A DNA stretch of 64,000 bases from Algibacter amylolyticus (lineage in GTDB: Bacteria > Bacteroidota > Bacteroidia > Flavobacteriales > Flavobacteriaceae), in NCBI RefSeq assembly GCF_014202225.1, contig NZ_JACHGE010000005.1, forward strand, positions 62,001-126,000. Direction: 5' to 3'. The notes below the pieces were generated by a model. It saw only the letters and a program-made list of their open reading frames with translations, searched no databases and had not been told where the DNA came from. Of this stretch, positions 12,058 to 49,065 are shown piece by piece. The translations under genes were made by a program, and so were the position numbers. Every line of letters starts with the position of its first letter. Position 1 is the stretch's first letter.

Positions 12058-12122
12058 CAATTTTATTATTTTTAAATGGCGTTTAATATAAATGATGGTT
12101 CAAATTCTTTAAACTATGTCTT
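12058..12122 (-). promoter_or_regulatory. Predicted HTCS-controlled promoter of the GH29/SGNH/sulfatase/SSS operon
   Basis: On the plus strand the 14-mers ATAAATGATGGTTC (12088) and TTAAACTATGTCTT (12109) are degenerate direct repeats 21 bp apart. A minus-strand -7 box, TAAAATTG (12058-12065), is exactly 22 bp from the nearer repeat. Spacing is identical to three other promoters in the window, at 31283, 32955 and 49001. The repeats are weaker matches here than elsewhere, but the fixed geometry supports them. The start codon of the GH29 gene is 137 bp downstream of the -7 box. Confidence 0.65.
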
Positions 12123-12169
12123 AATATGGCCAATTACGGCACTATAATTAGTATTTAAAGCTCTTTTTT

Positions 12170-14530
12170 TTACTTTACATTAATTGTTATTTGCTTTTCG
12201 GACTGGTTTCTCATAATTAACAATTCCATTTTGTCAGATTTATTTTCTGAATTAATTCTGAAAAAATCTTTAACCGTAATAACTTTTTGTCCTGACGCTT
12301 TAAGAATAACATCGCCCTTTTTAATACCATCGTTTTTTACAGCAGGACTTCCATTCCATGTTCGTAATATGATAACACCTTCGGCAGTATTTAAACCGTA
12401 AGCTGATTGTTCCTGCTCTGACTCTATACTTTTCAGCTGGTTTCTTAACCAAGCTACAACCGGATTATTTTCATTTTCTGAAGGATCTTTAATTTTAGGA
12501 ACTTCTGGTGTTTTCGCTATTTTTTTTAATGATTCTTTTTGAACTCCAAATTGATCCATTGGAAAATTCTTGAATCCTAATTTTAAAGCTGGCGAATTTT
12601 TAGAGACTGAAAAATCTAACTGCTCAGGATTTACAAACATAGGATCGCCGAAGGCACTATGTTTATCTCGATTGTAAATTTGTGGTTTCATCATAGCTGC
12701 CTCATTAGGAAATAGGTTATAATCTAAATCTTTACCCCAACCTAATAAACCAACATCTTGATAAGTATCGCCAACGATATTGTGTTTAAATACATCTTCG
12801 CTATTGGCAAACCAAACATGCGGATGTAGCGAATTGTTTACCATAATATTATTTTCCGCCACACGATTAAAACCTTCGCGTAATTTTAGACCGCTATTTA
12901 ACATTAAATTATTATAAATATGATAATTTGAAGATCCATCGTCCAAATCTATATCCCATCCATGATCGCAACGAAAACGGTTGTTTCTAATAATAGTTGT
13001 TTTTATAGCATCCCACTTATACATATCTGGAATAGCAGTTGTAAGGCTGTCCATTTTACCACGCTTAGGGTGCCAAAAACGATCGCGACCCCATGAATTA
13101 AATGATCCATGATCGCTAGTTTCTAAAACGGTATTAAACACATCGTTAAATTCTAAAACATGTCCGCCCCAAGTACCATCGCCAATATTAATACCAGCTC
13201 TTGGCACGTTGTAAATACTGTTATGGCGCACAGTAATATCCATAGCCATTGAAATTTGTACACCTGCGGTTTGCTTTTCAACACGACCTATTCTGTAAAT
13301 AAGATTGTTATCTACTAAACATTCGCGTGGAAATAATTCGTTTTTTGGTCCATGTACAGTATCCATATCTATAAAATGAACAAATTGTCCATAATTAAAG
13401 GATGGTGACCGCACTGCCGAAGGATCACCAATAAAAGATACGGCGCTACCACCACAATTGTAAATATGGTTTCCTTCTACTACCAAATCTTTATTGTATT
13501 TGCTAGCCATAATTACGTTTCCTCCTAAATTGGTGAATACACTATTTTCAACTTTACAGTTCTCGGTGCCTTCAAAAAACACAACTGCACCTCTGTAAAT
13601 GGTCCAATCGCTTCGCAGTAAAGGTTCGAAATCTTCCATGAAAGTACGTTGGGTATTTTCGAAAGTGATATTGCTAATTGTAACATTTTTAACAGGATTA
13701 TCTAAACTTCCAACTACTTGAATTAAATCTTTTAAAACGGCTACTTCAATATGGTCTTCATTTACATTTACACCTTCTGAAGGCCAGTAGTATAGCTTAT
13801 TAGTGTCTTTATTTAAGAACCATTCACCAGGACTATCCAATTCTTCAAACACATTTTCAACCATACGGTATTCTTTGTGTGGTTTAGACCCTCTGTTGTT
13901 TTGATGACCTCCTTTTAAAATTGGTGTTCCATCAGCATTTACACCTGTAATTTCAAAATGAAATCCGCCCCATCTTCCGCCGTGTAAGGCATGAAAAAGT
14001 GCGCCTTTAGGGTTTTCCCAAGAAGCAACACGTTCTTTTGAAATAGCATCGGCCGCATACCCTTGCCAATAATGGCCGTTTTCATCATAATTAGGGTAAC
14101 GTGCTAAAAGTTGAGCCTTTCCGTTAATAATTAATTGATCGAAATCTAATGAGTTATCAACTAGCGTTACATAAACATTCTCATTAAATTTTGTCCATTT
14201 AGAATCTAAAACAACAGACCCTTTTACATGCACTTCCGAAGCATCGGTACCAATAATTGAAACACCACTTAAAACCGCAGGAATTTCGATAGCTTGAGTT
14301 AAATAATAATCTCCGGGCAACACATTAATAATTATTTCAGCATCTAAATTATTCGATTTTAGCGCTTTTGCTTTATTGATAGCCTGATTAATACTAGAAA
14401 ACGGTTTTGCTTTTGAACCATCGTTTGCCGATGTTCCATTAACAGAAACATAAATTTCAATGGGTTTTGTGTTTGTAGCACATGCTAATACAAACGTGAA
14501 CAGAAACAGAAGTAAAATGTTGTTTTTCAT
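12170..14530 (-). CDS. Beta-helix glycosidase-like lipoprotein with C-terminal PDZ domain
   Basis: This 786-residue protein has a lipoprotein signal (TFVLACATN). Residues about 25-660 are a right-handed parallel beta-helix that opens with EIYVSVNGTSANDGSKAKPF. It contains LLARYPNYDENGHYW, GEWFLNKDTNKLYYWPSEG and repeated strands such as VEGNHIYNCGGSAVSF. This layout resembles GH141-type proteins (alpha-L-fucosidase or xylanase in known cases), but the family call is tentative. Conserved acidic stretches that could be catalytic include ETSDHGSFNSWGRDRFW and HGWDIDLDDGSSNYH. Residues about 690-786 form a PDZ domain, with GVIILRTWNGSPA, GIKKGDVILKASGQKV and a terminal strand. It is the last gene of the 11-gene operon that starts at 31180, 21 bp after an esterase gene. 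Confidence 0.78.
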   Translation of the reverse strand: MKNNILLLFLFTFVLACATNTKPIEIYVSVNGTSANDGSKAKPFSSINQAINKAKALKSNNLDAEIIINVLPGDYYLTQAIEIPAVLSGVSIIGTDASEVHVKGSVVLDSKWTKFNENVYVTLVDNSLDFDQLIINGKAQLLARYPNYDENGHYWQGYAADAISKERVASWENPKGALFHALHGGRWGGFHFEITGVNADGTPILKGGHQNNRGSKPHKEYRMVENVFEELDSPGEWFLNKDTNKLYYWPSEGVNVNEDHIEVAVLKDLIQVVGSLDNPVKNVTISNITFENTQRTFMEDFEPLLRSDWTIYRGAVVFFEGTENCKVENSVFTNLGGNVIMASKYNKDLVVEGNHIYNCGGSAVSFIGDPSAVRSPSFNYGQFVHFIDMDTVHGPKNELFPRECLVDNNLIYRIGRVEKQTAGVQISMAMDITVRHNSIYNVPRAGINIGDGTWGGHVLEFNDVFNTVLETSDHGSFNSWGRDRFWHPKRGKMDSLTTAIPDMYKWDAIKTTIIRNNRFRCDHGWDIDLDDGSSNYHIYNNLMLNSGLKLREGFNRVAENNIMVNNSLHPHVWFANSEDVFKHNIVGDTYQDVGLLGWGKDLDYNLFPNEAAMMKPQIYNRDKHSAFGDPMFVNPEQLDFSVSKNSPALKLGFKNFPMDQFGVQKESLKKIAKTPEVPKIKDPSENENNPVVAWLRNQLKSIESEQEQSAYGLNTAEGVIILRTWNGSPAVKNDGIKKGDVILKASGQKVITVKDFFRINSENKSDKMELLIMRNQSEKQITINVK

Positions 14531-14551
14531 AATTTAATTTAGTGTTGCTTT

Positions 14552-28307: not shown

Positions 28308-29393
28308 TTATTTTAATGGAATAACCATATTCCATGTTTTTGTTCCGTTTCTAAAACCACCAGGACCATCCATAGTAGCAAAGAAAATATGTGTAGGTTT
28401 TCCGTTTTCCACAAATACAAACGGACGTTCTAATTGCCCTTGTTTTATTGTTTTACCGTTATTCCATTTTACTAATTTTGTATACGCTCTAGGGTTCTTA
28501 TCAACTACCCAATGGATGCCATCTTTGGAATGCGCTAAAAGTCCGTCGCCTTTTCCTCCGGTAATTAATCCGCGTTGATCTTTAGCTACCAAGTGAAATC
28601 CCTTATCATCGCTCCATAAATGCGGATCTTCCACTTCGCCTAAATGTTCCATAGAAAATAAAGGTTTTGTTCCTACTACAGTATATTCACTATCGAACGA
28701 AGGCGCTGTAGCTACACCAATACTCATATCGCTGTGTTTTATACCATCTTCTTGATAACTTCTTCCTTTAAAAAGCAATACTACCGAACCATCTTCTTTA
28801 ATTAATGGTGAAGGGTTTGAGGTTAAAAAGCTGTAATAGGTATCTGGTTTAATATCTAAAACTGGAGTGTCTAATCGTTTCCATGGCCCATTAGGACTTT
28901 TAGAAGTTGCAACACCTACACGTTTTTGCCAACGTGCGGCTATACACCATTTGCTACTTAAATTAAAATCTTCAATATTATTTTGGGTGACTTCCTCAAA
29001 CGGATGCGTAGACCCCATGTAATATAAAATATAAGTATCCTTATGTTTTACAATTTTAGGATTATGGCATGAGCGTCCATCCCAAAATTGTGCACCACGA
29101 CTTCCTAAAGCGACATCTTGAAATTTATATGGTCCTTCGGGTGTGTTTGATGTGGCATGAACAATTTCTGAGGCTACCATCCAACCTGGATGAAAAGGTA
29201 AAAACTTTGGCCAACGCGATGCATACATATGATACTGCCCATCGTCGCCCTTAATTACCGAACTCCCCCAAACCCAATAATCGTCCATTTGTAAACCACC
29301 ATTTATTGGCGCTTCTTCCAAATTATCGAAAATTGAATTCTGTGCCGTTGCACAAGAAAACGCAGTAAAAAAGAATAAAATTAGGTATCTCAT
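28308..29393 (-). CDS. Five-bladed beta-propeller glycosidase-like protein (GH43/GH117-like clan)
   Basis: This 361-residue secreted protein (signal ending FSCATAQ) shows repeating propeller blades: YWVWGSSVIKGDDGQYHMYAS, CHNPKIVKHKDTYILYYMGS, NPSPLIKEDGSVVLLFKG, VEDPHLWSDDKGFHLVAKD and LERPFVFVENGKPTHIFFA. This pattern is that of GH43, GH32, GH117 and related exo-glycosidases. Plausible acidic catalytic residues are the Asp before YWVWG, the Asp in VEDPHLW and the Glu in QLERPF, but I cannot name the family. It lies 14 bp after the GH29 copy 2 gene and 44 bp before the MFS gene. It probably removes a terminal sugar such as xylose, arabinose or anhydro-galactose from the glycan. Confidence 0.75.
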   Translation of the reverse strand: MRYLILFFFTAFSCATAQNSIFDNLEEAPINGGLQMDDYWVWGSSVIKGDDGQYHMYASRWPKFLPFHPGWMVASEIVHATSNTPEGPYKFQDVALGSRGAQFWDGRSCHNPKIVKHKDTYILYYMGSTHPFEEVTQNNIEDFNLSSKWCIAARWQKRVGVATSKSPNGPWKRLDTPVLDIKPDTYYSFLTSNPSPLIKEDGSVVLLFKGRSYQEDGIKHSDMSIGVATAPSFDSEYTVVGTKPLFSMEHLGEVEDPHLWSDDKGFHLVAKDQRGLITGGKGDGLLAHSKDGIHWVVDKNPRAYTKLVKWNNGKTIKQGQLERPFVFVENGKPTHIFFATMDGPGGFRNGTKTWNMVIPLK

Positions 29394-31180: not shown

Positions 31181-31282
31181 TTTTAAATTTTTTTGTTCTT
31201 TTAACACCATCTTTTTAAGACCATTTTTCAGATTTAAAACCTACTGTTTTCAGTTAGTTACATCGAAAAAATTATATAGACA

Positions 31283-31347
31283 CAATAATAAAAATTATAG
31301 ATTTTGTAGTATATAAATCATTGACCATAAATTATAAACTATTGCTC
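31283..31347 (-). promoter_or_regulatory. Predicted HTCS-controlled promoter of the 11-gene enzyme operon
   Basis: Plus-strand 14-mers ATAAATCATTGACC (31313) and ATAAACTATTGCTC (31334) form direct repeats exactly 21 bp apart. The minus-strand -7 box TATTATTG (31283-31290) is 22 bp from the nearer repeat. The second repeat differs by only one base from its counterpart at 33006 and from that at 49052. A position beside the -33 region fits an activator that contacts RNA polymerase. Confidence 0.75.
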
Positions 31348-31625: not shown

Positions 31626-32852
31626 TTACTTCATTACAACAGCACTATTAGTCTTATTAAGCTTATTTAAACGTACTAATGCTTCCATGTAGTAGTAATC
31701 AGCATATACGATAGGCACATCAATTTCTGAGTTTTTAGGGTAATGCCCTGTTGAATGCAATAACAAAGCTTGATTAACATCGCCACTTAAATACTCCTTA
31801 GATGATAATGCCTCAACATAACTTGTAGCGGCATCAATGTATTTTTTCTTTAAGGCCTCATCTTTAACTAAACCAGCCAATTCATACATACCACATGCTA
31901 CTACAGCTGCTGCAGATGCATCTCTTGGTGCGTTAGGAATTTTAGGATCATCAAAATCCCAAAATGGAATTTTATCTTCTGGTAAACGATCCATATAATG
32001 GTCTGCTAAACGAATTGCAGTGTCTAAAAATGCTTTATCTCCAGTTTCTCTATATGCCACGGCAAATCCGTAAACCCCCCATCCTTGACCTCTAGCCCAC
32101 ATAGACTCGGTTGCATAACCTTGATGCGTATAACCTCTTAAAAACTCACCAGTTTCCTCATCGAAAGAACCTACGTGATATACCGCATCATCCTTACGAA
32201 CAATATGCTGCATTGTTTTTTCGGCATGACTTTTAGCAAGATCATATAGTTTTTGATCACCTCCATTTTTAGCTGCCCAAAATAGCAACTCTAAATTCAT
32301 CATATTATCTATGATGGTGTTATACTTAAACTTATGTTTTTGACTAGGCCATGATAAAATAGTTCCTACAGTTGGATTATATAACGTAGCTAATGTATCG
32401 GCTGCAGCTAATAAAATTTCTTTGTATTCCTCATTACCAGTTAATCTATACCCATTACCATAGCTACAATAAACCATAAACCCAATATCATGATTATCGG
32501 CAGGTGTATAAGCTATTGTTTTAAGCGGTGCCGTAAATTTCTCTGCTTGCACCTTAATTTGCTCATCTCCAGAAGCCTCGTATGCATACCATAATGCCCC
32601 AGGCCAGAACCCACTACACCAATCGGTAACGCCAACAAAATCCCAATCTGTTTTATTATTTTTTACATTTCTAGGAAAACTATCGAAATTAGTTAAACTA
32701 GCAGCAACTTCTTTCATTTTAGTAGCATTCTGTTGTAATACTTTATCTGAATTAAACACTGCACTATCAGTCGTTGACACTTCCTTTTTTGTAGAATTAC
32801 AAGCAAGCATTAAAAATAACACTAAAACTAAAACTGGTTTGGTTATACTCAT
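31626..32852 (-). CDS. GH88 unsaturated glucuronyl hydrolase, copy 2 (lipoprotein)
   Basis: This 408-residue protein has a lipoprotein signal (LFLMLACNST). Both GH88 aspartate motifs are present: DNHDIGFMVYCSYGNGY and TIIDNMMNLELLFWAAK, plus WARGQGWGVYG and FWDFDDPKIPNAPRD. It removes the unsaturated uronic acid from the ends of lyase products. Long stretches are identical to copy 1 at 6656-7846, so the two arose by duplication, yet copy 2 is a single-gene unit with its own HTCS-type promoter (32955-33019) and its own terminator (31526-31566). Separate control suggests that one copy may be an early, sensing-related enzyme and the other part of bulk degradation; this is inference. Confidence 0.92.
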   Translation of the reverse strand: MSITKPVLVLVLFLMLACNSTKKEVSTTDSAVFNSDKVLQQNATKMKEVAASLTNFDSFPRNVKNNKTDWDFVGVTDWCSGFWPGALWYAYEASGDEQIKVQAEKFTAPLKTIAYTPADNHDIGFMVYCSYGNGYRLTGNEEYKEILLAAADTLATLYNPTVGTILSWPSQKHKFKYNTIIDNMMNLELLFWAAKNGGDQKLYDLAKSHAEKTMQHIVRKDDAVYHVGSFDEETGEFLRGYTHQGYATESMWARGQGWGVYGFAVAYRETGDKAFLDTAIRLADHYMDRLPEDKIPFWDFDDPKIPNAPRDASAAAVVACGMYELAGLVKDEALKKKYIDAATSYVEALSSKEYLSGDVNQALLLHSTGHYPKNSEIDVPIVYADYYYMEALVRLNKLNKTNSAVVMK

Positions 32853-32954: not shown

Positions 32955-33019
32955 CAATTTTAGGAATTAAAGATTATACTGTTATTAAATTATCATCCAA
33001 AAGCTATAAACTATCGCTC
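32955..33019 (-). promoter_or_regulatory. Predicted HTCS-controlled promoter of GH88 copy 2
   Basis: Plus-strand 14-mers TTAAATTATCATCC (32985) and ATAAACTATCGCTC (33006) are direct repeats 21 bp apart. The minus-strand -7 box TAAAATTG (32955-32962) is 22 bp away, the same sequence and distance as at 12058. The GH88 start codon is about 100 bp downstream. Confidence 0.72.
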
Positions 33020-33377
33020 ATTTACGGCTAAAAAAGGCTGTCACGAGGCTTTTAGAATAAAAGCAGATTAAAAATTAAAAAATATTGTAACTAAAAACAG
33101 TAAATTTTTATTCTCAATTATTTTTAATTAAACACATGGCAGCAGCGAAATACACCCCTGTAAATTAATAAACTAACATAAAAACTGTATCTAGAATAAC
33201 GTCATGAATAAAATCTGTGAAAACCAACATTTTTTTTGAAGCAAATAAGTAAAAAACCTCATTTTAGCCCTCAAACACCCATTTTATAGCCAAAAAGGCT
33301 TATAATTTATACTGATTGCACTTTGAATTATATTATGATACCTATAGTCTAAATATATTTACAGTATAATTAATTGT

Positions 33378-33718: not shown

Positions 33719-35335
33719 CTACTCTTCTATAAAATTATCTGGAATAGCTAATGGTAAAAACCAATTAGATGGATCCATTAATTTTGCTCTTACTTCATTC
33801 GCTTGACCTGTATTTCCAGATGTGTCAAACTTATTAAAAACAGCATCAGCTATAATTGCTGGGTTATTATCACGTTTAGCAAAGCGAAGTAAATCTTCCC
33901 ATCTATTACCTTCAAAAGCTAACTCTAATGCAGCCTCTTCAAGGATAAGCGCTCCAACTTCTTGGATAGCCTCATTTAATGCTAAATCTTCTGCAATACT
34001 AACTGGAGCCATACCAACACGCCCTCTTATACCACGATTACCAGAAATTGGTTGGTCGCTATTATTAACCGTATAATACTGATCGATATCAAAATTTAGA
34101 AAACCTTCTACATTATTAAATACTAAAGCATCCACTGGCTCTACATCTGGGTTATTAAAAATACCATTAACAATAGTTAAAGCATGTTGTGGGTAGCCTG
34201 CATAGTTTATAGCCTCAGCATATCTTAAATAAATTTTAGCTGCTCTATTCCATATAAAACGCTCATATTGGTATTTATATATTACTGATGCATCACCTTC
34301 ACCATCATACGATCCTATAATTCGAGTATCGCCTATGTAATTAAGTATTTCAACAGGTTCTCCTTCATAACCAGCTTTACCATTTCCAAATTTTAATATA
34401 GCCCATTCAGATGGTCTCATTTGGGTAGTAAGTGCTTCAAAACTTTCGTTTGGTTGGCGGTATTGGTCATCGAATGCTGTATAATCTATATGCTCGTTAC
34501 CTGCTATGTAATCTTGAGAAATACTAATCCATGACGTAGTAAATACATAATCACTTCCACTTGGCTCAACATTTACGGCATAAGAGTTTAAATTATATAC
34601 ATTTCCAATTACATTATCGTCTAAAAACTGCTTGTAATGTATGGCTGCTTCTGTATAATTTCCATTCCATAAATATAAATCTCCTAAAAGAATATCATTG
34701 TTAGGAATCATACTAGAAATATTATATCCTAATGAATTTGCATATTTAGTAACGTTTTCTACGTCTGCAATTTCTTGAAGATTAGAAATTAATTTATTAA
34801 TAGCTTGATTAAAATCTAATAAAGGGTACTCCGTTTCTAAATCTTTATTGGTTCTAATTGGCTTAGTAATATATGGTAATTCGCCATAATTAATAAGGAT
34901 TTGCATTTGTGCCCAAGTTCTAATTCTTAGAATTGAAGCATAGTCATCTAGCAATACATTATCGTAAGCATCAGTATCAATACCTTCTAAAGCAAAGTTA
35001 CAGTTGTTTATAATAGAGAATAATGTTGTTGGATCTGCAATACTGTTATCCTCACTAACATTGTGGTCGTTAATTTGACGTAAATCATCGGCTGTATTAG
35101 CATTTACATTCACTAAATCGGCACGCATTTCGCCAAGCATAACATATTGCCCTGCGACATCTTGCATTTGAGATAGTACACCAAATAAAGCTGATCGTGC
35201 ATCTATGGCATCATCTCCTAAGTAATCATCCTCAAGTAATACTTCTTCTGGCGAAACTTCTAAAATAGATTCACAAGACGTAAACAGAGTTAAACTTAAA
35301 AGTACTCCAAAGGTTATATTTATATATTGTTTCAT
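33719..35335 (-). CDS. SusD-family glycan-binding lipoprotein, second pair
   Basis: This 538-residue protein has a lipoprotein signal (LTLFTSCES). SusD proteins are surface lipoproteins that cap a SusC channel and hold the oligosaccharide to be imported. Visible family features are the TPR-like helical repeats (NGNYTEAAIHYKQFLDD), RIRTWAQMQILINYG and the C-terminal EAALELAFEGNRWEDLLRFAKR that defines the RagB/SusD C-terminal region. It is the last gene of the surface operon, 27 bp after its SusC partner, and is followed by a strong terminator. It is only distantly similar to the other SusD at 41773-43233, so the two pairs probably take different oligosaccharides. Confidence 0.93.
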   Translation of the reverse strand: MKQYINITFGVLLSLTLFTSCESILEVSPEEVLLEDDYLGDDAIDARSALFGVLSQMQDVAGQYVMLGEMRADLVNVNANTADDLRQINDHNVSEDNSIADPTTLFSIINNCNFALEGIDTDAYDNVLLDDYASILRIRTWAQMQILINYGELPYITKPIRTNKDLETEYPLLDFNQAINKLISNLQEIADVENVTKYANSLGYNISSMIPNNDILLGDLYLWNGNYTEAAIHYKQFLDDNVIGNVYNLNSYAVNVEPSGSDYVFTTSWISISQDYIAGNEHIDYTAFDDQYRQPNESFEALTTQMRPSEWAILKFGNGKAGYEGEPVEILNYIGDTRIIGSYDGEGDASVIYKYQYERFIWNRAAKIYLRYAEAINYAGYPQHALTIVNGIFNNPDVEPVDALVFNNVEGFLNFDIDQYYTVNNSDQPISGNRGIRGRVGMAPVSIAEDLALNEAIQEVGALILEEAALELAFEGNRWEDLLRFAKRDNNPAIIADAVFNKFDTSGNTGQANEVRAKLMDPSNWFLPLAIPDNFIEE

Positions 35336-35362: not shown

Positions 35363-38300
35363 TTATAGTCCTAATCTAACTCCAATTAATACAGAGCTAT
35401 ATTGCGGTGTATATCCTGCATCAATGCCTTGTAAATAACTTGACTGAGATGAACTTACTTCTGGATCATAACCTAAATAATCTGTAATTGTAAATATATT
35501 ATTTGCTGTTACATAAAACGTAGCATTAAAAATTTCTGGACTGTAAGATAGCGTAATGGTTTTAAGACGAATGTACGATCCATCTTCTATCCATCTATCT
35601 GAAAATCTTGAATTCCCTACGGCATCACCATAAACAGCACGTGGCACAGAAGTATTTTGATTTGCAACCGTCCAGCTATTTGCTACAGCCTGACTTTGGT
35701 TAGAGAAATCGCTCATAGCTTCGTTTTTCCAACGTAATGCATTATAAATGTCGTTACCTTGACTAAATGAGAACACTGTAGAAAGAGATATTTTATTGTA
35801 TGTAAACGTGTTAAACAATGTTCCTGTAAAATCTGGATTTGGATCTCCAATTACAACTCTATCATCTTCATTTATTACATTATCGGAAGCATCAGTATTA
35901 ACAAATCTTACATCTCCAGCAACAAACGCTTGTTCGAAACCTTTAAAATCGGTCCAGTTTAAACCATCGGCACTAGCCTCTGCACTATTATTATAAATAC
36001 CATTAGTTTTATATCCATAAAATAAACCTATTGCTCCGCCTTCTTGGTTTAAAATAGTAGCATTTATACCATCGACAGTTGTAATTTGAGTTTGTCCAGG
36101 AAGCGAAATAATTTGGTTTTTATATTGTGAAATATTACCACCAATATCCCAAGTAAATTTACTAGTATTAAAAATACGTGCATTAAGGCCTAACTCGAAA
36201 CCACGGTTTCTAACTTTTCCATCGTTATTTAAAAAACCTTCACTACCGTATATTGGACTAGATTCATTTAAATTTAATAACCCATCTGATACATTATTAA
36301 AGTAATCAAAATTTAAAGCCAAACGCTCATTAAACAACCCAACATCTAACCCTAGGTTGGCTTTGGTAGTTTCTTCCCATCTTATAGAACTATTAGCAAT
36401 GTTTCCATTTACTAAACCTGAACCTTCTAAAAATCTAGTTGAAACAAAGTAAGATTCAGCATTGTAATTACCAATACCATCGTTACCTGTTAAACCATAA
36501 CTAGCACGAAGTTTTAACTGATCGATAGCAGGCATATTTGCCATAAAGTTTTCTGATGAAACTAACCAAGCAGCTCCTATAGCAGGAAAGAAACCTCCTG
36601 ATTTATCATCTCCAAATCGAGATGAAGCATCAATAGATAAATTATAGCTTACAAAATATTTATTTAAAAACGCATAGTCTCCACCTGCATACAGTGATGC
36701 ATATTTCCAGTTACCAATACTACCAGATGTAACAAATGTTAACCTATCTCCACTATCTAAAGAGGTGAACTGATCGTCTCCAGAGTTTCCACTAATAGAA
36801 TACGAGTTATCATAGCTATTTTGGTTATAACGGAACCCTAAGTTAAATGAGAAATCGTGTATATGATCGACATTTACTTTATAGTTTAATTTGGTATCGT
36901 TATACACTGCAAATAAACTCTCGGCACTTACTTTTGATGTACGTACTAACTCATCGCCATATTGGTTAAACTCTGTAGCCAAACCTAAATCTGGCAAGAA
37001 CACGTTTTGTCTGTTTTTAATATAGTTAGCACCAACTAATGAACTTACACTAAGCTTATTAGTTATTTGATAAATAAATTTTAATTGGCCATATAAGTTA
37101 TAATCCTTAGCTTTAAAAATAGCATTATCTGTAATAGCTACAGGGTTACTAGCTCCTAACTCATCAATATCTTCATAAATACCAGTTACAACACCATCTG
37201 CATTTGGCGTAAACGGTGCTAAAAATGGTGCTTTTTGAAGTGACGTAAATATTGGCGAGGTACTTAGTAATCCATCATCAAACACATCACGCTCGGTATA
37301 TGCAACACTTAAATTAGTATTTAACGTTAGTCTTTCTGTAACGCTTGTTTCTGCATTAAAACGTGTAGTAAACCTATTGAAACCAGAATTTTCAACAACA
37401 CCTTCATTGGTTGTATACCCTATAGATAAACCATATTTAGAAATTTCATCACCACCAGTAACTCTTAAGTAATAATCATTTACGTAGTTATTAGTAAAAA
37501 TTTCATCTTGCCAATTGGTTGTATTATGATATTTTGAATAATCCTCGAAAGCGGTGTTTTCATTAAAAAAAGGAAGTCCTGCAATAGCACTATTTGAATA
37601 CAGACCAGAGTTGTTCATTTGATTGCTCAAATAACTTCTAAACTGGTTGCTATCCATCATAGGGATATTTTTAGGCGCAAAATTTAAACCACCTTGAATG
37701 TAAAAATCAATTTTAGTAGCAACGTCTTCCGCTTTATTGGTTTCTATAAGAATCACACCGTTGGCTCCTCTAGAGCCATACGTTGAAACCGCATCTTTAA
37801 TTACTGTAATACTTGCAATATCCTTTGGATTAATATCCGATAAAGGATCGTAGCTATATCCATTAATTAAATTATTGTTAGAGAACGTATTAGTCTCTAT
37901 CATCATACCATCTACAACTACCAATGGTTGTGTAGAACCGTTTATGGTATTGTAACCTCTAATAAATATATTAGCGCCAATTCCAGGAACGCCAGAACGC
38001 ATAATGGATCTTACACCACTTACTTCGCCATTTAAAATATTAGCAACAGACTCTCTAGGTGTTGAAATATCGCCTTCCTTTACAGAAACGGCATTGGTAA
38101 TTGAACTATTTGTTTGTTTTTCAAAAGGCATATCAACATCTTTATAATAAGAGTTGAATGCTTTTTCATGTAATTTAATTTCAACATTTGAACGTCCTTT
38201 TAAAGCTACCTCCTTAACATGGAAATTAGAACTAGAAACCGTAAGCGTTGCTCTGCTATCTGGCACTCTTAGTCTAAAATTTCCGGATTTGTCTGTTAAA

Positions 38301-38488
38301 ACAGAAGCAAATTTACCAACACGCACGTTAATACCTGCAAGTGGTTCACTATTAGTAGCATTTAAAACCGTTCCTGTTACGGTAAGTTTAGATTTTTCCT
38401 GTCCTTGCAAAGCAAAAGTAATTCCGAAAAATAAAATGAAAAGCAGGGAATATGTATTTTTTATTTTCATCATAGTCAGATAATTCAT
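35363..38488 (-). CDS. SusC-family TonB-dependent outer-membrane transporter, second pair
   Basis: This 1,041-residue protein has a signal peptide ending ALQGQ. A carboxypeptidase-like beta-sandwich follows (LTVTGTVLNATNSEPLAGINV), then a TonB plug with GVPGIGANIFIRGYNT, LVVVDGMMIETN, IASITVIKDAVSTYGSRGANGVILIET, and a C-terminal barrel ending in a short aromatic/hydrophobic strand (VRLGL). SusC proteins import oligosaccharides with energy from TonB. Three closely spaced ATG codons exist (38488, 38473, 38470); the two inner ones give a more typical MKIKN start. It lies 22 bp after a FAS1 gene and 27 bp before its SusD partner. Confidence 0.95.
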   Translation of the reverse strand: MNYLTMMKIKNTYSLLFILFFGITFALQGQEKSKLTVTGTVLNATNSEPLAGINVRVGKFASVLTDKSGNFRLRVPDSRATLTVSSSNFHVKEVALKGRSNVEIKLHEKAFNSYYKDVDMPFEKQTNSSITNAVSVKEGDISTPRESVANILNGEVSGVRSIMRSGVPGIGANIFIRGYNTINGSTQPLVVVDGMMIETNTFSNNNLINGYSYDPLSDINPKDIASITVIKDAVSTYGSRGANGVILIETNKAEDVATKIDFYIQGGLNFAPKNIPMMDSNQFRSYLSNQMNNSGLYSNSAIAGLPFFNENTAFEDYSKYHNTTNWQDEIFTNNYVNDYYLRVTGGDEISKYGLSIGYTTNEGVVENSGFNRFTTRFNAETSVTERLTLNTNLSVAYTERDVFDDGLLSTSPIFTSLQKAPFLAPFTPNADGVVTGIYEDIDELGASNPVAITDNAIFKAKDYNLYGQLKFIYQITNKLSVSSLVGANYIKNRQNVFLPDLGLATEFNQYGDELVRTSKVSAESLFAVYNDTKLNYKVNVDHIHDFSFNLGFRYNQNSYDNSYSISGNSGDDQFTSLDSGDRLTFVTSGSIGNWKYASLYAGGDYAFLNKYFVSYNLSIDASSRFGDDKSGGFFPAIGAAWLVSSENFMANMPAIDQLKLRASYGLTGNDGIGNYNAESYFVSTRFLEGSGLVNGNIANSSIRWEETTKANLGLDVGLFNERLALNFDYFNNVSDGLLNLNESSPIYGSEGFLNNDGKVRNRGFELGLNARIFNTSKFTWDIGGNISQYKNQIISLPGQTQITTVDGINATILNQEGGAIGLFYGYKTNGIYNNSAEASADGLNWTDFKGFEQAFVAGDVRFVNTDASDNVINEDDRVVIGDPNPDFTGTLFNTFTYNKISLSTVFSFSQGNDIYNALRWKNEAMSDFSNQSQAVANSWTVANQNTSVPRAVYGDAVGNSRFSDRWIEDGSYIRLKTITLSYSPEIFNATFYVTANNIFTITDYLGYDPEVSSSQSSYLQGIDAGYTPQYSSVLIGVRLGL

Positions 38489-40052: not shown

Positions 40053-40083
40053 TCTTAGTTCTTTAGTTATTAGTTTAGTTTTA

Positions 40084-41772: not shown

Positions 41773-43233
41773 TTAATTGTTTTCGTAGTAAGGGTTTTGA
41801 AGTAAATTTTTATTTAAATCAATTTCGTTTTGAGAAATTGGTAAGAAATAAGATTCTGCATCAGAATAAAAACTTAATATCTGTTCATAATCATCAGGTC
41901 CTGCTTTTAGATCTACTAAATCTGTAATAAGAAATTGATCTTCAAAATTGTTTCGACGCGCAAAACGTAATAAATCATACCATCGCTTACTTTCGAAGGC
42001 AAATTCTTTTTGGCGCTCTAGTAATAAGGCATTTGATAATGATGTTTTATCAATAGTAACATTAAAAGGCGCACCAGTTGCACGTTCGTGAACTTGCCCT
42101 ATTAACTCTGCTGCTTTATTTAAGTTTTGGTTTTCAGTTGAAAATATATAAGCCTCTGCTTGCATTAATAAAACCTCGGCATATCTATAAAATATAAACG
42201 TGTTATAAAACTCGTCATTTCCACGATATAACCCAGTTTCGTCAATACCTGCAAACTTAAATACTGTATTTAAATCCTCATCATAAGTAGCCTTATCTGC
42301 TCTTACATCATCTAAAAACTCCACATAAAGTTCTTTTGTGCCACCAAAAGGAGCGTAAGTAGGACTACCAAAATAGAATGCGTTTTGATATGTTTTATTT
42401 ATATCGTCGAACTGAAGTTCAAAAATTCCTTCAGAAGAGTTTCCTTCAAAAAAGATACTGTTAAACCATTCTGAACCATCAACTAAACTGTATCTACCCG
42501 AGTCAATAATATCTTGAGTGGCGTTAATACACTCGTTATATTGTTCGCTCCATAAATACACATCTGCTAAAATAGAAAGTGCCCCACCTTTAGTCATTCT
42601 TCCTTTATCATAACCTATTGCCTCGTATCCGATATTAAGATCTTCAACAGCCTTTTTTAAATCCGCCACTATTTGCTCAATAATTTCACTTTCGCTGCTT
42701 TTAGCAGGATAAAAATTAACCTGATTACTTGCAGTAGCTGTTAAAACCAAAGGCACTTCCTTAAAGTTTTTTACTAGTATAAAATATACTAACGAACGTA
42801 TGGCTAAAGCTTCTGCCTTAAAGGTAGCTGCCTCAGCTTCGGTAAACGATAAATCTTTTGCTTGAGCTTGATCTGTAAACTCTAACACTAAGTTACAATA
42901 GTTAACAGTGGCATAAAAATTATTCCAATTAACAAGAGAGTTGGTAGGTGTAATGAAATTTTTCATCATGTTTCGCTCATTATTCCCTGCTCTTACTGAA
43001 ACTAACATTTCAGCTCTTAACTCACCCCATTTTAACACTCTATCGGTAAACCCAGACTGGTTCATTGATGCATAACACCCTGCAACGGCAGATGCTACTT
43101 GTTCTTTATTCTGCCAAAACTCATCTTGAATAAGATTATCTTGCGGCTCAAGTTCCAAATAACTACTACACGACGCTAATGAAGCGATTAGTAAAGGAAC
43201 AATTGCGAATATTTTAATTATATTTAGTTTCAT
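41773..43233 (-). CDS. SusD-family glycan-binding lipoprotein, first pair
   Basis: This 486-residue lipoprotein (IASLASCSS) begins with YLELEPQDNLIQDEFWQN, the typical start of a mature SusD. The family helices follow (EQVASAVAGCYASMNQSG, ALAIRSLVYFILVKNFKEVPL, GALSILADVYLWSEQYNEC), and the C-terminal block LLLERQKEFAFESKRWYDLLRFAR is diagnostic. It binds the glycan at the surface and works as a lid on the SusC encoded 22 bp upstream. It is shorter than the second SusD (538 residues) and clearly divergent from it. Confidence 0.94.
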   Translation of the reverse strand: MKLNIIKIFAIVPLLIASLASCSSYLELEPQDNLIQDEFWQNKEQVASAVAGCYASMNQSGFTDRVLKWGELRAEMLVSVRAGNNERNMMKNFITPTNSLVNWNNFYATVNYCNLVLEFTDQAQAKDLSFTEAEAATFKAEALAIRSLVYFILVKNFKEVPLVLTATASNQVNFYPAKSSESEIIEQIVADLKKAVEDLNIGYEAIGYDKGRMTKGGALSILADVYLWSEQYNECINATQDIIDSGRYSLVDGSEWFNSIFFEGNSSEGIFELQFDDINKTYQNAFYFGSPTYAPFGGTKELYVEFLDDVRADKATYDEDLNTVFKFAGIDETGLYRGNDEFYNTFIFYRYAEVLLMQAEAYIFSTENQNLNKAAELIGQVHERATGAPFNVTIDKTSLSNALLLERQKEFAFESKRWYDLLRFARRNNFEDQFLITDLVDLKAGPDDYEQILSFYSDAESYFLPISQNEIDLNKNLLQNPYYENN

Positions 43234-43255: not shown

Positions 43256-46200
43256 TTAAAATGTAAGGTTTAATCCTACAGTTACTTCTTGAGATCTAGG
43301 TGTTTGATTAGTATCATAACCTAACTGTTGCCAGTTATTACTACTACCTGTTTCTGGATCGGAACCCGAATACTTTGTAAACGTTAATAGGTTAGTTCCT
43401 GTTACATAAACCGAAGCCTTCGTAAAATTCAATTTTTGAATGAATGTTTGCGGTAGATTGTATTTTAAAGTTACATATTTTAATCTCATAAACGACCCAT
43501 CTTCTAGAAAACGATCTGAACCTAAAGTATTTACTGGACTATTTAATACTGCTCTTGGTATATCTGTTACATCACCTTCAGCTCTCCAACGGCGTAATAC
43601 AGAAGTACTTTGGTTATCGAAACTATCCATACTTTCTGCATTCATTCGTGCTATATTTATAATTTTCTGATTATACCTGAAATTAAAAAACGCATTTAAA
43701 CTGAAGTTTTTATAACGAATATTTGGTCCGAAACCACCGTATAAAAGTGGATTAGCATTACCTAAATACACGACATCTAATCGGTTAATGTTACCATCTT
43801 TATTAACATCCTCGTATCTCGCATCACCAGCTCTAAACTCATAACCGCCATTAAAAACTAGAGTTTTAGGTGTACCATCTAAATCATAAATAATCTCATT
43901 ATTTTCATCACGAGCTATTAAATCATCACTTGTACTAAATACTCCTAAAGATCTGTACCCGTAAAAAGACCCAATAGGGTTACCTTCTTGTATTCTTTTT
44001 AAGTAACCGCCTTCTCCTGTTGTTAAAGGATTACCATCTTCGGAATCCTGAGCATCAGTAATTTTAGTAATTAAGTTATTGTTACGTGCAATATTGAAGT
44101 TTACTTCTAAACCAAAGTCTTTATTTTCTATAACCTTTGTTCTTACACTTAACTCAAACCCTTTGTTACTAATATTACCTAAGTTAAGAAAAGGCACATT
44201 AGAAAAACCTGAAGTAGAAGGAATAGATGTATTTTTAGACAATAAATCTCTAGTGTCTTTTTGATAAAACTCTAAATCTCCACTTACTCTGCGGTTAAAG
44301 AAAGAATAAGTAAGTCCTATATTTTTTTGAATAACAGTTTCCCATCTTAAATCGGTTAATTCCATATTGTTTGGAATTACTGGACGCTCATCAAGATAAT
44401 TATAATTATATGTTGAATACGTGTTGTATTGACCATAGTTAAAGCTTGGTGAGTTACCATTTACACCATAACTTGCTCTAATACCAAGCTCGTCAATAAA
44501 CTCCGCAGATTCCATAAAAGGCTCATCTGAAAGAATCCATTTACCCGCTATACTAGGGAAAGTACCATACCTGTAACTACTACCAAATTTAGAGTTACCT
44601 TCTGAACGAATACCACCACTTAATATATAACGATCTAAAAACTGATAGTTAAACATAAAGTTATAAGACAACGATCTGTTTTGTGTAAAACTAGACGATA
44701 GTGAATTTCCACTTCCTTCTATTCTTGTATTTGCAATTGGCGTTTGGATGTAACTACTTGGCGAGTTACTCGCTACAGCTGCATAGCCTTGACTCGTTTT
44801 CTCGAAAGTTTGAATAGAAGCACTAGTAAATAACGAATGGTTATCCCCTAAACCTGGACTCCAAATAAGTCTATTATCTGTACGCATTACAAAAAACTCT
44901 GCATCGGAGAAGGTTGCTCTATTAGCTGCTGAGTTTGTCCATGATGTCCCTAAGGCTTCTTCTGGAACAAAAAGCGCTCTTTTGTCTACATTAATATCAA
45001 ACGAAATAATAGAACGGAAATCTAAAGTCTTCATAGGTTTATAGTTAAACCTGAAAATAGGCGTTATCCTGTTATTTTCATTATTATTTGTTGATAACCT
45101 AGCCATAGCAACTGGGTTGTAATACTGCACTCCGTTACCTTGAAAAGCATCAATTGGTGTAAAGTATTGATCTGTTAAATTACCCTCTTCATCTAATTGA
45201 TATATAGATTGGTTTGGCATTTTTACAAGCGCTAATGCTCTTAGCGATTGCTGCCCTAAACTATTATCTTTGGCATAAGAACGATCTAAAGAACCATGTG
45301 TATAAGACAATTCTGATGATATAGTGATTTTATCAGATATGTTATAATCAAGTATTGCTCTAGTTGTAAATAATTTAAACGCACTACCTAGTGTAGTACC
45401 TAATTGATCTTTATAACTCGCAGATACACGGTATGATGATTTTTCACCACCACCAGAAACACCTAAAAAGTGTTCTTGTGTTGTTCCTGTTTGCGTAATC
45501 TCGTCTACCCAATCAATATTTTTGTTATACAAGTTATACAACTCGTACTCCGGATTGTATTCTATTTGAGGATATACCGTTTGATTGTTTGTTGCTATAT
45601 TTTCATCTTTAATTAATGTTGAATATTGATCACCATTTAACAACGGAATCCCATCTGGTTGCCATCCAACACTACCTTTATAACTGTATGAAAATCTTGC
45701 AGGACCTTTTGCTCCACGCTTTGTTTTAATAAGTAAAACTCCATTTGCAGCTCGCGAACCATATTGTGCAGTTGCGGCAGCATCTTTAAGTACCGATATT
45801 TCTTCGATATCATCTGGCGACACACCAATCATGGCAGCATATTGCTCCTCATCGGCAGATCCAAAATCAAAAAGCTCATCTACTTCCGTTTCAAAAGGAA
45901 CACCATTAATAACAATTAAAGGTTCTGAAGATGCATTTAAAGACGATGTACCACGAATACGAATAGACATTCCAGCACCAGGCTCACCCGAATTTGCTAC
46001 AATATCCACACCACTTAATCGACCTTGCAATTGATCTACAATACCAGATGATACTGTTTCACTAAGTTCCTTAAGCGAGATACTTTCAATAGCCGTAGCT
46101 ATTCTACGTTTATCCATTTCGAACTCTCCAGTAAATACCTTTTTTCTTGCACGTAGTACAATAGCATCTAACTCTGAGATATCCTCGGCTAACGCCACAT

Positions 46201-46507
46201 CGATTGTTGTTTCACTACCAGGAACAACCTCCTTAGTTATAAAACCAACATACGAGAACGTTAGGGTGTTTGTAGGGTCTGTAATGTTAATAGAGAAATT
46301 TCCATTAAAATCTGCAACAACCCCGTTAATAATTCGATTATTTTTATCTTTTTCGGCTATGGTAGCCCCTGTTAATGGTATGCCATCACTTTCTCCAACA
46401 ACGGTTCCTGTAACATTTATTTTTGACTGTGCTGATACGTTGAATACCGAAAACAGCATACAAAATACCACTAAGACATAAGAATATGACCTATATTTAT
46501 CCTTCAT
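43256..46507 (-). CDS. SusC-family TonB-dependent outer-membrane transporter, first pair
   Basis: This 1,083-residue protein has a signal peptide ending NVSAQ. A carboxypeptidase-like domain follows (INVTGTVVGESDGIPLTGAT), then a plug with VDQLQGRLSGVDIVANSG, MSIRIRGTSSLNASSEPLIV, IEEISVLKDAAATAQYGSRA and a 22-strand-type barrel ending in LNLTF. It imports oligosaccharides in a TonB-dependent manner together with the SusD encoded 22 bp downstream. It is the second gene of the operon, after a four-repeat FAS1 protein. An acidic insertion in the plug (VDELFDFGSADEEQ) is unusual compared with the second SusC. Confidence 0.95.
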   Translation of the reverse strand: MKDKYRSYSYVLVVFCMLFSVFNVSAQSKINVTGTVVGESDGIPLTGATIAEKDKNNRIINGVVADFNGNFSINITDPTNTLTFSYVGFITKEVVPGSETTIDVALAEDISELDAIVLRARKKVFTGEFEMDKRRIATAIESISLKELSETVSSGIVDQLQGRLSGVDIVANSGEPGAGMSIRIRGTSSLNASSEPLIVINGVPFETEVDELFDFGSADEEQYAAMIGVSPDDIEEISVLKDAAATAQYGSRAANGVLLIKTKRGAKGPARFSYSYKGSVGWQPDGIPLLNGDQYSTLIKDENIATNNQTVYPQIEYNPEYELYNLYNKNIDWVDEITQTGTTQEHFLGVSGGGEKSSYRVSASYKDQLGTTLGSAFKLFTTRAILDYNISDKITISSELSYTHGSLDRSYAKDNSLGQQSLRALALVKMPNQSIYQLDEEGNLTDQYFTPIDAFQGNGVQYYNPVAMARLSTNNNENNRITPIFRFNYKPMKTLDFRSIISFDINVDKRALFVPEEALGTSWTNSAANRATFSDAEFFVMRTDNRLIWSPGLGDNHSLFTSASIQTFEKTSQGYAAVASNSPSSYIQTPIANTRIEGSGNSLSSSFTQNRSLSYNFMFNYQFLDRYILSGGIRSEGNSKFGSSYRYGTFPSIAGKWILSDEPFMESAEFIDELGIRASYGVNGNSPSFNYGQYNTYSTYNYNYLDERPVIPNNMELTDLRWETVIQKNIGLTYSFFNRRVSGDLEFYQKDTRDLLSKNTSIPSTSGFSNVPFLNLGNISNKGFELSVRTKVIENKDFGLEVNFNIARNNNLITKITDAQDSEDGNPLTTGEGGYLKRIQEGNPIGSFYGYRSLGVFSTSDDLIARDENNEIIYDLDGTPKTLVFNGGYEFRAGDARYEDVNKDGNINRLDVVYLGNANPLLYGGFGPNIRYKNFSLNAFFNFRYNQKIINIARMNAESMDSFDNQSTSVLRRWRAEGDVTDIPRAVLNSPVNTLGSDRFLEDGSFMRLKYVTLKYNLPQTFIQKLNFTKASVYVTGTNLLTFTKYSGSDPETGSSNNWQQLGYDTNQTPRSQEVTVGLNLTF

Positions 46508-46529
46508 ATTTTATAAACTTTAAGTTTTA

Positions 46530-48854
46530 CTATTTAATATAATTAGAGGTTTCGTGAATTACCACTCTTTTAGAAAATAAGTTTGTTATACCACTTGTAG
46601 TAACAGACTCTCCGCTTTCTACATTCGTAATAGAAATTGAAGATGTTGTATTAACAACTGAAAACTCATCATAAATTTCGGCAAAGTCAACTATTTTACT
46701 GAAATACATTGAAGCAAAAGTTCCTGTAGTTTTACCATCTGTAGGTAATGCTTGTTGTATAAAATGTTTTCTAGCAAAGTTTAGAAGATCTCTTTTTGCA
46801 ATAGCTTTATCTAAATCGTCTAGCCCATCTACTGTAGAAGGATCTACAATTACACCATCGCTTATAGCTTGTGCAACTGCACTGTTATTAGGTGCAAATA
46901 ATGTAAAAGTTCTACTTAGGTTTAGAAAATTTAATAATTTATCATCCGACCCTACAATAGTAATAAACGCATCGGCACTTTCTAAAACTTCTAAAAAAGA
47001 AGAGAAGGTAGTAGCATTATCTACAAGCAAACTGTATGTAAAGCCTAATGGTCTTTCTATGATACTACTCATTTCATAAAAATTACCGTTAGCCGTTTCT
47101 TTGGTTTCTACTATTTGAGCAGATCTTCCTAATTGAATATCGCCTCCTCCAGCGGCAGAATTACCATCAAACGCATATACATACTCACCACTTCTTGTTT
47201 GATAATAATTATTAGAACCAAAATCAATATCCTCATCAACAATTTGATTAAGTACAATATCATTTATTGTTTTTGTAACATAAGCAACATCTGCAGAACT
47301 AGGACTTGAAGCTTCTGGATCTGGGTAAATACGATTACCGTTTCCAGGATCGCCAGTTACCTCCATATATACTACACCAGACACATTAATATCATATCCT
47401 GGTGGCAATCTTGGATCGTCTACTAACACCGTAATTTTACGAGTCGCACTATTTGGATCTGCAACATCAACAAATTGGTCATTTTTAACACCTAAAATAG
47501 TGAAACGTGATGATTTACTCTGTAATGCAGTATCAATTCCTAAATCTTGAATTGCCCCAAGCATAATAGAATAATTTTCATCTAATAAAAGTGGTCCCAT
47601 AATGGTTCCGAAACTATTGTTAGTATAAACAGTATTTACACCCACGAAAAAACCATTACTACAAAACCTTTTATCTACAACATCTTCTAGTTTATAATCT
47701 ACCAGACCTAGACTAGTATCGTAACTTTGACCTAACCTACTTGGGCAAATATCCCAATAATCATTAAAAAAATAAGGTGATAAAAACTTACCTACAACAT
47801 CTAAAGGCATATCATCATAAGAGTCGTAAAACTGACCCAAAATGCTATTACCGTCTAGATAGCTTATTAACGCATCATTGGTTGGAGCCAAAAACCCCCA
47901 AGCCTGCGCTAACGTTCCGTCTATATTTGTCGCGTAATTTTCATCAAATGGATTAAAAGGAAGCGCATCGTTTTCAACTCCTGTATAAAATCTAAACTGA
48001 AAAACCTCTTCTAGCTCACCTGTTTCTTCATTTATTTGATCGCCCAATGATCTAATTTCAGCGAAACGTTCAATCATTTTTTTAAACATAGAATATTTAC
48101 CTCCATACTCTGCAGCTGAAAGATTTTCGTATAAGTTTGGCTGTGGTTCAATTACTTTATCTAGAGCATAGATAATTCCATTTTCTGCTATTACATTCTT
48201 TTGAGAAACATTAGCATCAAAAACTTTCATATCTCCTTCATTAAAAGTCTCACCAGGAAACATAAAATCGTAATCTGAATATTCGACACCCCAAGTACTC
48301 ATATACGAATCAAGAAAATAGTCGACAGTTTTTTGCCTACCATTACTATAGTTCATTAAGTATTTTTGTTGGTCTAACTTATCCCATTCAAAAATATGTT
48401 GTAAAGTATCTTTATCAAATTCTCTATTAGCTGCTTGATATTGTGTTCTACGTCTAAAACTTTGACCTAAATAAAATCTACTTTTAAAATACGTTAAGGT
48501 TGTTGTATTCCAACCATCTGTAATAATTGTATTCTCAACTAAATGTTGAATTCTTTCTTGAGGAATAGCATCAAAAGTAGCGAAACCTTCATCGCTCATA
48601 AACTTCTCAAAAGCTTCATCTGTAGGAGCAAAAACAGTCCATGAGCCTCCCTTTTTTAAAGGTTCTGGATATAAGGTTTGGTCCAACGACTTTAAATAAT
48701 AATCAAATGTACCCATCGACTCCAGTTGGGTATAAATTGTTCCCGCCAAATCATCGGGACGGGCATACTCCAGCGGATCAGGCTTGCAACCAAATACAGC
48801 CATAATCATACAGAGTATAATTAAACTTTTTCTATGCATAATTTTTTTTGCCAT
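46530..48854 (-). CDS. Multi-FAS1-domain lipoprotein, first gene of the surface operon
   Basis: This 774-residue lipoprotein (IMAVFGCKPD) appears to hold four FAS1 repeats. The first has SMGTFDYYLKSLDQTLY and WTVFAPTDEAFEKFM. The second has YSMFKKMIERFAEI and WGFLAPTNDALISYL. A third, degenerate one has IMLGAIQDLGIDTAL and FTILGVKNDQFVD. The last has FSSFLEVLESADAFITI and FTLFAPNNSAVAQAI. An ATG five codons downstream (MHRKS) is an equally good start. It is the promoter-proximal gene, 22 bp before SusC, so it should be made in the highest amount. I infer a surface glycan-binding or glycan-capturing role. It could instead be a cell-cell adhesin. Confidence 0.82.
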   Translation of the reverse strand: MAKKIMHRKSLIILCMIMAVFGCKPDPLEYARPDDLAGTIYTQLESMGTFDYYLKSLDQTLYPEPLKKGGSWTVFAPTDEAFEKFMSDEGFATFDAIPQERIQHLVENTIITDGWNTTTLTYFKSRFYLGQSFRRRTQYQAANREFDKDTLQHIFEWDKLDQQKYLMNYSNGRQKTVDYFLDSYMSTWGVEYSDYDFMFPGETFNEGDMKVFDANVSQKNVIAENGIIYALDKVIEPQPNLYENLSAAEYGGKYSMFKKMIERFAEIRSLGDQINEETGELEEVFQFRFYTGVENDALPFNPFDENYATNIDGTLAQAWGFLAPTNDALISYLDGNSILGQFYDSYDDMPLDVVGKFLSPYFFNDYWDICPSRLGQSYDTSLGLVDYKLEDVVDKRFCSNGFFVGVNTVYTNNSFGTIMGPLLLDENYSIMLGAIQDLGIDTALQSKSSRFTILGVKNDQFVDVADPNSATRKITVLVDDPRLPPGYDINVSGVVYMEVTGDPGNGNRIYPDPEASSPSSADVAYVTKTINDIVLNQIVDEDIDFGSNNYYQTRSGEYVYAFDGNSAAGGGDIQLGRSAQIVETKETANGNFYEMSSIIERPLGFTYSLLVDNATTFSSFLEVLESADAFITIVGSDDKLLNFLNLSRTFTLFAPNNSAVAQAISDGVIVDPSTVDGLDDLDKAIAKRDLLNFARKHFIQQALPTDGKTTGTFASMYFSKIVDFAEIYDEFSVVNTTSSISITNVESGESVTTSGITNLFSKRVVIHETSNYIK

Positions 48855-49000
48855 AATTAATAGTAAATTAGTTTAATAGTTATTGTTTAGTTAATTAGTT
48901 ATTCGTTTAAAAATTTTAATCATCTCTAGATTTTAATATTAAATTATTAAGAATAGTTAAAATTTGAACATTGTTAATTTCCGTTAACAATTTGTTAATA

Positions 49001-49065
49001 CAAACTTAAAAAAGCAGGTGGTTATAGTTTATAAATTATTACTCTAAAGAGATAAATTATTGCTC
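49001..49065 (-). promoter_or_regulatory. Predicted HTCS-controlled promoter of the SusCD/FAS1 operon
   Basis: Plus-strand 14-mers ATAAATTATTACTC (49031) and ATAAATTATTGCTC (49052) differ by one base and are direct repeats 21 bp apart, the best-preserved pair in the window. The minus-strand -7 box TAAGTTTG (49001-49008) is a perfect TAnnTTTG and lies 22 bp from the nearer repeat. The adjacent HTCS gene is the obvious source of the regulator. Confidence 0.8.

Follow-up and report, generated by a model that had tools for sequence, protein, structure and literature searches.

Which regulator drives the promoters of the sulfated-glycan cluster of Algibacter amylolyticus, and by what arrangement of DNA signals? 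The question arises from a 64,000-nt window of this genome (contig NZ_JACHGE010000005.1 of GCF_014202225.1, here C5, starting at C5:62001; coordinates without a contig label count along the whole window), which holds four minus-strand promoters of one layout and a gene for a hybrid two-component system (HTCS) at 49349..53557. A sequence-only reading of the window had placed direct repeats of 21-bp period at 12088/12109, 31313/31334, 32985/33006 and 49031/49052, and a -7 box 22 bp from the nearer repeat; every repeat start was confirmed to the base, and the 22 bp were exact at 4/4 sites. Read 5′ to 3′ on the minus strand, each element consists of a far half-site of 14 bp, 7 bp, a near half-site of 14 bp, a 22-bp spacer and an 8-bp box. 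Promoter 1 (12058..12122) has its far half-site at 12109-12122, its near one at 12088-12101 and the box TAAAATTG, whose plus-strand complement is 12058-12065. The corresponding parts are 31334-31347, 31313-31326 and TATTATTG at 31283-31290 in promoter 2 (31283..31347), 33006-33019, 32985-32998 and again TAAAATTG at 32955-32962 in promoter 3 (32955..33019), and 49052-49065, 49031-49044 and TAAGTTTG at 49001-49008 in promoter 4 (49001..49065). The half-sites are AT-rich, with the consensus GAAYnATAATTTAT in the direction of transcription, and uneven in quality (mismatches to the two-copy pattern: none at 49031, one at 32985, two at 12088 and three at 31313). The minus-strand HTCS gene encodes a 1402-aa protein in which Pfam finds a Reg_prop sensor, Y_Y_Y, HisKA, HATPase_c, Response_reg and HTH_18/AraC, so that propeller sensor, histidine kinase, receiver and AraC-type helix-turn-helix (HTH) are joined in one chain. 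Judged from the DNA, the elements are very probably binding sites of this HTCS, occupied by a tandem AraC-type dimer and set inside putative promoters of the primary sigma factor.

We searched the 4.35-Mb genome with the pattern WTAAAYTATNNYTC-N7-WTAAAYTATNNYTC, allowing up to 3 mismatches; the pattern was designed after seeing the four sites, and the reversed pattern served as control. It gave 19 matches, compared to 6 for the control. The matches were not scattered: 11 of the 19 fell in a single 95-kb stretch (C5:16-111 kb), all on the plus strand, i.e. facing minus-strand genes, and all positioned ahead of cluster genes. Seven of these 11 lie outside the window because it begins at C5:62001. 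At C5:22906 the match runs across the start of the longest frame of its gene, so that the real start would have to be further in. The primary-sigma box of the Bacteroidetes is TAnnTTTG, with TAnnTTGY as the SM5 variant (PMC9723704, PMC7366714). Of the seven further C5 sites, which the repeat alone had located, six have a TA-initial octamer at a distance of 22 bp (TATATTTG, TAATTTTG, TAGTTTTA, TATTTTTA, TAATTTGC and TAGATTGC), and in the seventh (TAATTTTG) the distance is 21 bp. TAATTTGC and TAGATTGC match only the SM5 box, which comes from Flavobacterium psychrophilum (PMC9723704), and the octamers ending in TTTTA are weak.

The co-occurrence of motif and regulator argues for assigning the sites to this HTCS, as the sequence-only reading had proposed. 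In an even sample of 396 further genomes of the family, taken from a larger group, we found an HTCS ortholog with 54-73% identity over the whole protein in 19, one genome having two copies; the next-best HTCS matches reached at most 39% full-length or 42% partial identity. Relatives at 51-63% identity occur in Maribacter and Flavobacterium, and among the 19 orthologs compared the HTH is more conserved than the sensor. Pattern matches were present in 19/19 ortholog-bearing genomes (138 in total, compared to 42 for the control). Twenty genomes without a close HTCS ortholog, two of them from the same genus, were at control level, with matches in 14 genomes, a total of 32 compared to 44 for the control, and no match with fewer than two mismatches. 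The match counts of bearing and non-bearing genomes differ (Mann-Whitney p 3e-6). In its presence with the orthologous HTCS and its absence without one, the motif behaves like the HTCS motifs of Ravcheev et al. 2013. The better matches also lie close to the regulator gene: within 180 kb of it, a neighbourhood amounting to at most 8% of the sequence, fell 11/11 matches with no mismatch, 19/20 with one, 23/32 with two and 32/75 with three. The nearest site is at most 11 kb from the HTCS gene in 18/19 genomes and at most 650 bp in seven.

The 22-bp spacing persisted at sites that had not been used to propose it. Test sites were found by the repeat alone, in stretches beside HTCS genes and around near or clustered matches; 94 of the 138 matches fell in the fetched stretches and 44 outside, and one duplicate on the opposite strand (locus L214) was dropped, leaving 93 sites. 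A box with at least 5 of the 6 letters of TAnnTTTG stood at exactly 22 bp in 68/93, compared to at most 5/94 (mean 1.3%) at each other distance from 0 to 69 bp. The box was found at 22 bp in 9/11, 14/20, 20/28 and 25/34 sites with zero, one, two and three mismatches, respectively. A strict box (TAnnNTTG or TAnnTTGY) occurred at 22 bp in 59/93 sites, at 21 bp in four, and at any other distance in at most one.

We trained a 65-position matrix on the 93 foreign sites only and scanned C5:1-146000. It gave 16 matches above 10 bits, all of which exceeded 20 bits; 15 lie on the minus strand and one on the plus strand. The four window promoters are among the 15, with 35.3, 44.8, 47.2 and 39.2 bits for promoters 1 to 4. 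Promoters 1 and 2 precede fucosidase-family genes (10557-11921 and 29408-31210), promoter 3 a GH88-family gene (31626-32852) and promoter 4 the fasciclin/SusC/SusD genes starting at 48854. The matrix also recovered four sites missed by the pattern (C5:14914, 8323, 60996 and 12119), and two of its 15 sites (C5:22940 and 60996) overlap the longest-frame start. The co-oriented sites extend over C5:8 to 111 kb (about 103 kb). Thus the four promoters of the sequence-only reading stand, and their total does not: there are 15 co-oriented sites in C5:1-146000, and the count of four followed from the window edge. A single sugar-sensing regulator very probably controls about fifteen operons through this shared layout. 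No match above 20 bits was found in the sequence of 75 other HTCS-query loci (1.31 Mb; some of them only partial kinase matches) or in ten stretches of the same genome around other HTCS or Reg_prop genes. Matches above 20 bits were found at three of five places in the genome chosen for their pattern matches: C1:818558 (about 8559 in locus L062), at the start of a gene for a protein with a type IX secretion system (T9SS) tail; C2:48026 (about 8027 in L063), ahead of a SusC/SusD pair; and C2:433952 (about 3453 in L056), ahead of a gene for a DUF1592/cytochrome protein. The frame at L056:3664 had been taken as SusC-like from its length, an assignment ruled out by its Pfam match to the DUF1592/cytochrome protein. 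The three distant full elements suggest a scattered regulon, in which this HTCS probably controls a few distant operons as well.

Several results weigh against this assignment. No good box was present at 22 bp in 25/93 sites, and three of the seven further C5 sites (C5:15999, 29551 and 55057) have an equal or better TAnnTTTG elsewhere in the 50 bp scanned. The matrix scan of C5:1-146000 gave no site above 10 bits ahead of the HTCS gene itself. Genome G383 has no site closer than 73 kb to its HTCS gene, and the second HTCS copy of G323 (contig C9, locus L190; 61% identity) has no site in the adjoining 20 kb; that copy may have changed its specificity. Among other HTCSs, considered below, mixed loci have no single box distance (2-3/46 at each of 22-25 bp), and one class keeps the 21-bp repeat with no fixed box distance (2/18 sites). 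A further point concerns a second candidate regulator. The scanned proteins of C5:1-126000, all but those at C5:18359, 38611, 57451 and 59498, include two regulators besides the HTCS, a GntR protein (56370-57080) and a stand-alone cupin-AraC protein (C5:816-1679, locus L046), whose gene lies at the far end of the cluster. Dimers of the AraC family use 21-bp direct repeats too, and the cupin-AraC protein, an AraC-type HTH encoded beside the cluster, might own the sites instead. It must be taken seriously as a rival, since its orthologs accompany the cluster: at 50% identity or more they occur in 16/19 motif-bearing genomes and 5/20 non-bearing ones, and the gene lies 223 bp from the HTCS ortholog in G121 and 212 bp from a site in G370. 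Its linkage to the sites is nevertheless looser than that of the HTCS, which has a site no more than 11 kb away in all but one genome. In 8/19 genomes the contig with the best cupin-AraC match carries no site, although broken assemblies may conceal linkage in some of these, and in 4/19 the nearest site is over 1 Mb away from that match. Moreover, G321 and G014 have cupin-AraC relatives of only 39% identity, and G321 still has the box at 22 bp in 6/6 sites, whereas G110 has a cupin-AraC ortholog of 65% identity, no close HTCS ortholog and no match with fewer than three mismatches. We therefore consider ownership by the cupin-AraC protein unlikely, although the two regulators may share the cluster.

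The common layout could also reflect descent alone, if promoters had been duplicated within the cluster and inherited with no present role in binding; all 15 co-oriented sites on the contig precede genes of a single cluster. Mere copies would be expected to agree throughout, and the 22-bp spacer carries only 0-0.4 bits per position, the information being confined to half-sites and box. Grouping at 80% identity over 65 bp left 85 groups from the 93 sites, and 62/85 have the box at 22 bp, which makes descent alone a very improbable explanation. That the repeat is a generic activator or nucleoid-protein site upstream of strong promoters is hardly credible despite its AT-rich half-sites, given the control-level matches in the 20 family genomes without a close HTCS ortholog and the empty 1.31 Mb of other loci.

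Returning to the HTCS, from the observed geometry, conservation and co-occurrence we infer a scheme for ligand, binding, start sites and activation. The periplasmic propeller would sense a sugar released from the sulfated glycan of the cluster, and the kinase would phosphorylate the receiver. Two AraC-type domains would then bind on the same helix face, in head-to-tail order, at half-sites two helical turns apart, and the two HTH units of each protein would read the outer GAAY and the inner ATAATTTAT parts. The nearer bound regulator would replace the -33 element and touch RNA polymerase at a promoter that has no good -33 element of its own, and in this way a single HTCS could activate about 15 co-oriented operons over some 103 kb. 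A regulator that substitutes for the -33 element and touches the polymerase would have to keep a near-constant distance to the box. The receiver contains the sequence CHIP, and an S/CHIP motif in the receiver marks the autoinhibited type of HTCS (PMC11253607); by analogy, binding to the proposed sites should require phosphorylation. The -7 box was mapped at -12 to -5 in Flavobacterium psychrophilum (PMC9723704), which would place the half-sites at about -69/-56 and -48/-35, the nearer one abutting the -35 region. A box-like sequence holds a fixed place relative to the repeat, and the boxes resemble the Bacteroidetes -7 box, being mostly TAAnATTG-like with a minority of TAnnTTGC. Unlike in the standard promoter, a TTG lies in the place of the -33 element (the first 8 nt of the spacer) at only 12/93 sites, and the near half-site abuts there.

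The closest likenesses outside the phylum are to AraC-family activators. XylS at the Pm promoter of Pseudomonas binds repeats with a 21-bp period at -70/-56 and -49/-35, and at araI1-I2 of E. coli, AraC binds two half-sites in head-to-tail order, spaced by 21 bp and next to the -35 element. The Pm site consists of two 15-bp direct repeats with two boxes each, for two HTH motifs (PMC5481539). Likewise the elements described here have two direct repeats, which would stand beside the -35 region, each with two parts that two HTH motifs would read, and show the class II layout of AraC and XylS, with a 21-bp period and a near half-site that would abut the -35 region (68/93 sites; its position relative to the start is derived from PMC9723704). 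They differ in that XylS is a soluble benzoate-sensing activator at sigma32/38 promoters and AraC binds arabinose at a sigma70 promoter, whereas here a membrane HTCS would act at a Bacteroidetes -7 box. Within the phylum, 16 Bacteroides HTCS motifs were predicted, all of them direct repeats of on average 21 bp, and dimers two turns apart were proposed (PMC3878776, Ravcheev et al. 2013). Our elements share with them the tandem repeat of about 21 bp, the AraC-type HTCS and a placement ahead of operons of one sugar locus and of a few distant genes; they differ in half-site, in lineage and in the box distance, which is measured here and not given in the available part of that paper.

We explored the possibility that the layout extends to other HTCSs. 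We examined 349 intergenic regions from 87 other HTCS-query loci, including five close-ortholog loci; a repeat of 11 of 14 letters occurred at 21 bp in 41 of the regions, compared to 4-20 at other spacings. With the close orthologs (loci L096-L100) dropped, as also in the joint scan below, 399 directed regions of 77 mixed loci had it in 46 at 21 bp (one an N run), 24 at 22 bp and 25 at 20 bp. The joint scan of spacing and box put 21 bp highest at 9 of 14 letters (133, then 101 at 20 bp), 20 bp at 10 of 14 (43, with 37 at 21 bp) and 22 bp at 11 of 14 (15, with 4 at 21 bp). A single-sequence search around the seven other HTCS genes of the same genome, which lacked power, gave 21 bp as the best of 17 spacings in 5/40 regions. 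We then took the 1.5-kb flanks of HTCS genes by class. A spacing of 21 bp led in the class of the window HTCS (class A; 16/40, next 12), in class B (20/60, next 14) and, narrowly, in class C (15/60, compared to 14 for the runner-up; with 12 of 14 letters required, 8 compared to 3), and was tied in a small mixed set (6/20).

Class B comprises the HTCS at C2:654 kb of the same genome and its relatives, with loci taken from the best matches listed and a half-site AMCATnTGTT. Its box stood 24 bp after CATnTGTT in 13/34 sites located by the repeat (again at loci among the matches listed), compared to a background of 1.2% and 3 sites at the best other distance; in the register of class A this distance would correspond to 22 bp, by an alignment made after seeing the sites. 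Genome-wide matches of class B were not above control in several genomes (13 compared to 12 in G002, 5 compared to 6 in G001), so that its support comes from the box peak and not from the number of matches. Class C comprises the HTCS at C4:332 kb and its relatives (L267-L309) and has the repeat GCAACATTTGT, which formed 13 pairs at 21 bp (the site of the genome itself counted twice) and at most one at other spacings. Ten of 13 genome-wide matches lay within 600 bp of their own HTCS, and 8/18 genomes had no genome-wide match. Class C, which has no fixed box distance, may work in another way or rely on a different sigma factor. For the HTCS at C6:122 kb, no match at E 1e-250 was found in the 348 other genomes searched.

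The fixed-box rule therefore holds for two HTCS classes and is not established in general. A tentative generalization, which we regard as possible but would not presume, is that HTCS promoters follow a general grammar in the form of the 22-bp coupling: in one common register the end of the near half-site would always be 22 bp from the -7 box, the half-site would replace the -33 element, and only the half-site letters would vary with the HTH. The half-sites are GAAYnATAATTTAT in class A and nAMCATnTGTTnn in class B. Helix 2 of the HTH contains KCF in classes B and C, which share CATnTGT, and KTF in class A; under such a grammar, the outer letters of the half-site would depend on helix 1 and the inner ones on helix 2. 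The missing fixed box of class C counts against a general 22-bp rule. If the grammar were true, sensors could be matched to promoters from sequence alone.

To our knowledge, targets are known for few HTCSs. Together with extracytoplasmic function (ECF) sigma factors, these proteins are the commonest regulators of Bacteroides polysaccharide loci (PMC11501099). The sequence-only reading had called their sites poorly known, which is too strong for the repeat: HTCS repeats of about 21 bp are published (PMC3878776), and our element thus adds to a known motif type in another family of the phylum. The open-access texts (without supplements) on HTCS repeats, promoters and regulons, in the parts available, state no fixed distance from repeat to -7 box. 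With the fixed distance, an otherwise loose AT-rich motif gives no match above 20 bits in the 1.31 Mb of other loci, and the distance would assist in finding targets of such regulators. Under the 65-position model of repeat, 21 bp, 22 bp and box, a single sensor is assigned about 15 operons along with a few distant ones; should other HTCSs follow the rule, regulon prediction and the building of sugar-inducible promoters for the phylum would become much easier.

The genes behind the promoters indicate what the cluster may be for. Promoter 4 is followed on the minus strand by a fasciclin-domain protein gene (46530..48854), a SusC-like TonB-dependent receptor (43256..46507) and a SusD-like protein (41773..43233); a second SusC-like TonB-dependent receptor (35363..38488) and a second SusD-like protein (33719..35335) lie further on. 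Behind promoter 3 is a Glyco_hydro_88-family protein (31626..32852), and behind promoters 2 and 1 are alpha-L-fucosidase-family proteins (29408..31210 and 10557..11921), all on the minus strand. The genes directly behind the sites outside the window include those for a GH95 fucosidase, a sulfatase, CBM6, alginate-lyase-family and T9SS-secreted proteins. With the fucosidase-family genes of the window, these first genes fit a fucose-rich sulfated glycan as the putative substrate, as far as gene content tells. No Pfam match at the cut-offs used was obtained for the 361-914-aa proteins at 1135-3630, 18231-20903, 28308-29393 and L048:8336-11080, and these proteins of the cluster are candidates for undescribed enzyme families.

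The single plus-strand matrix site (33297..33361, 30.0 bits) lies in opposite orientation within the 867 bp that separate the GH88 gene from the SusD-like gene and may be a chance occurrence; a transcript from it would be antisense to the SusD-like gene at 33719-35335. Only 4 of the 38 window frames of at least 120 aa are on the plus strand, and each overlaps a longer minus-strand frame. Three fasciclin-domain proteins (38511-41760 and 46530-48854) alternate with the two SusC/SusD pairs, and two of the longest frames share a 26-bp overlap.

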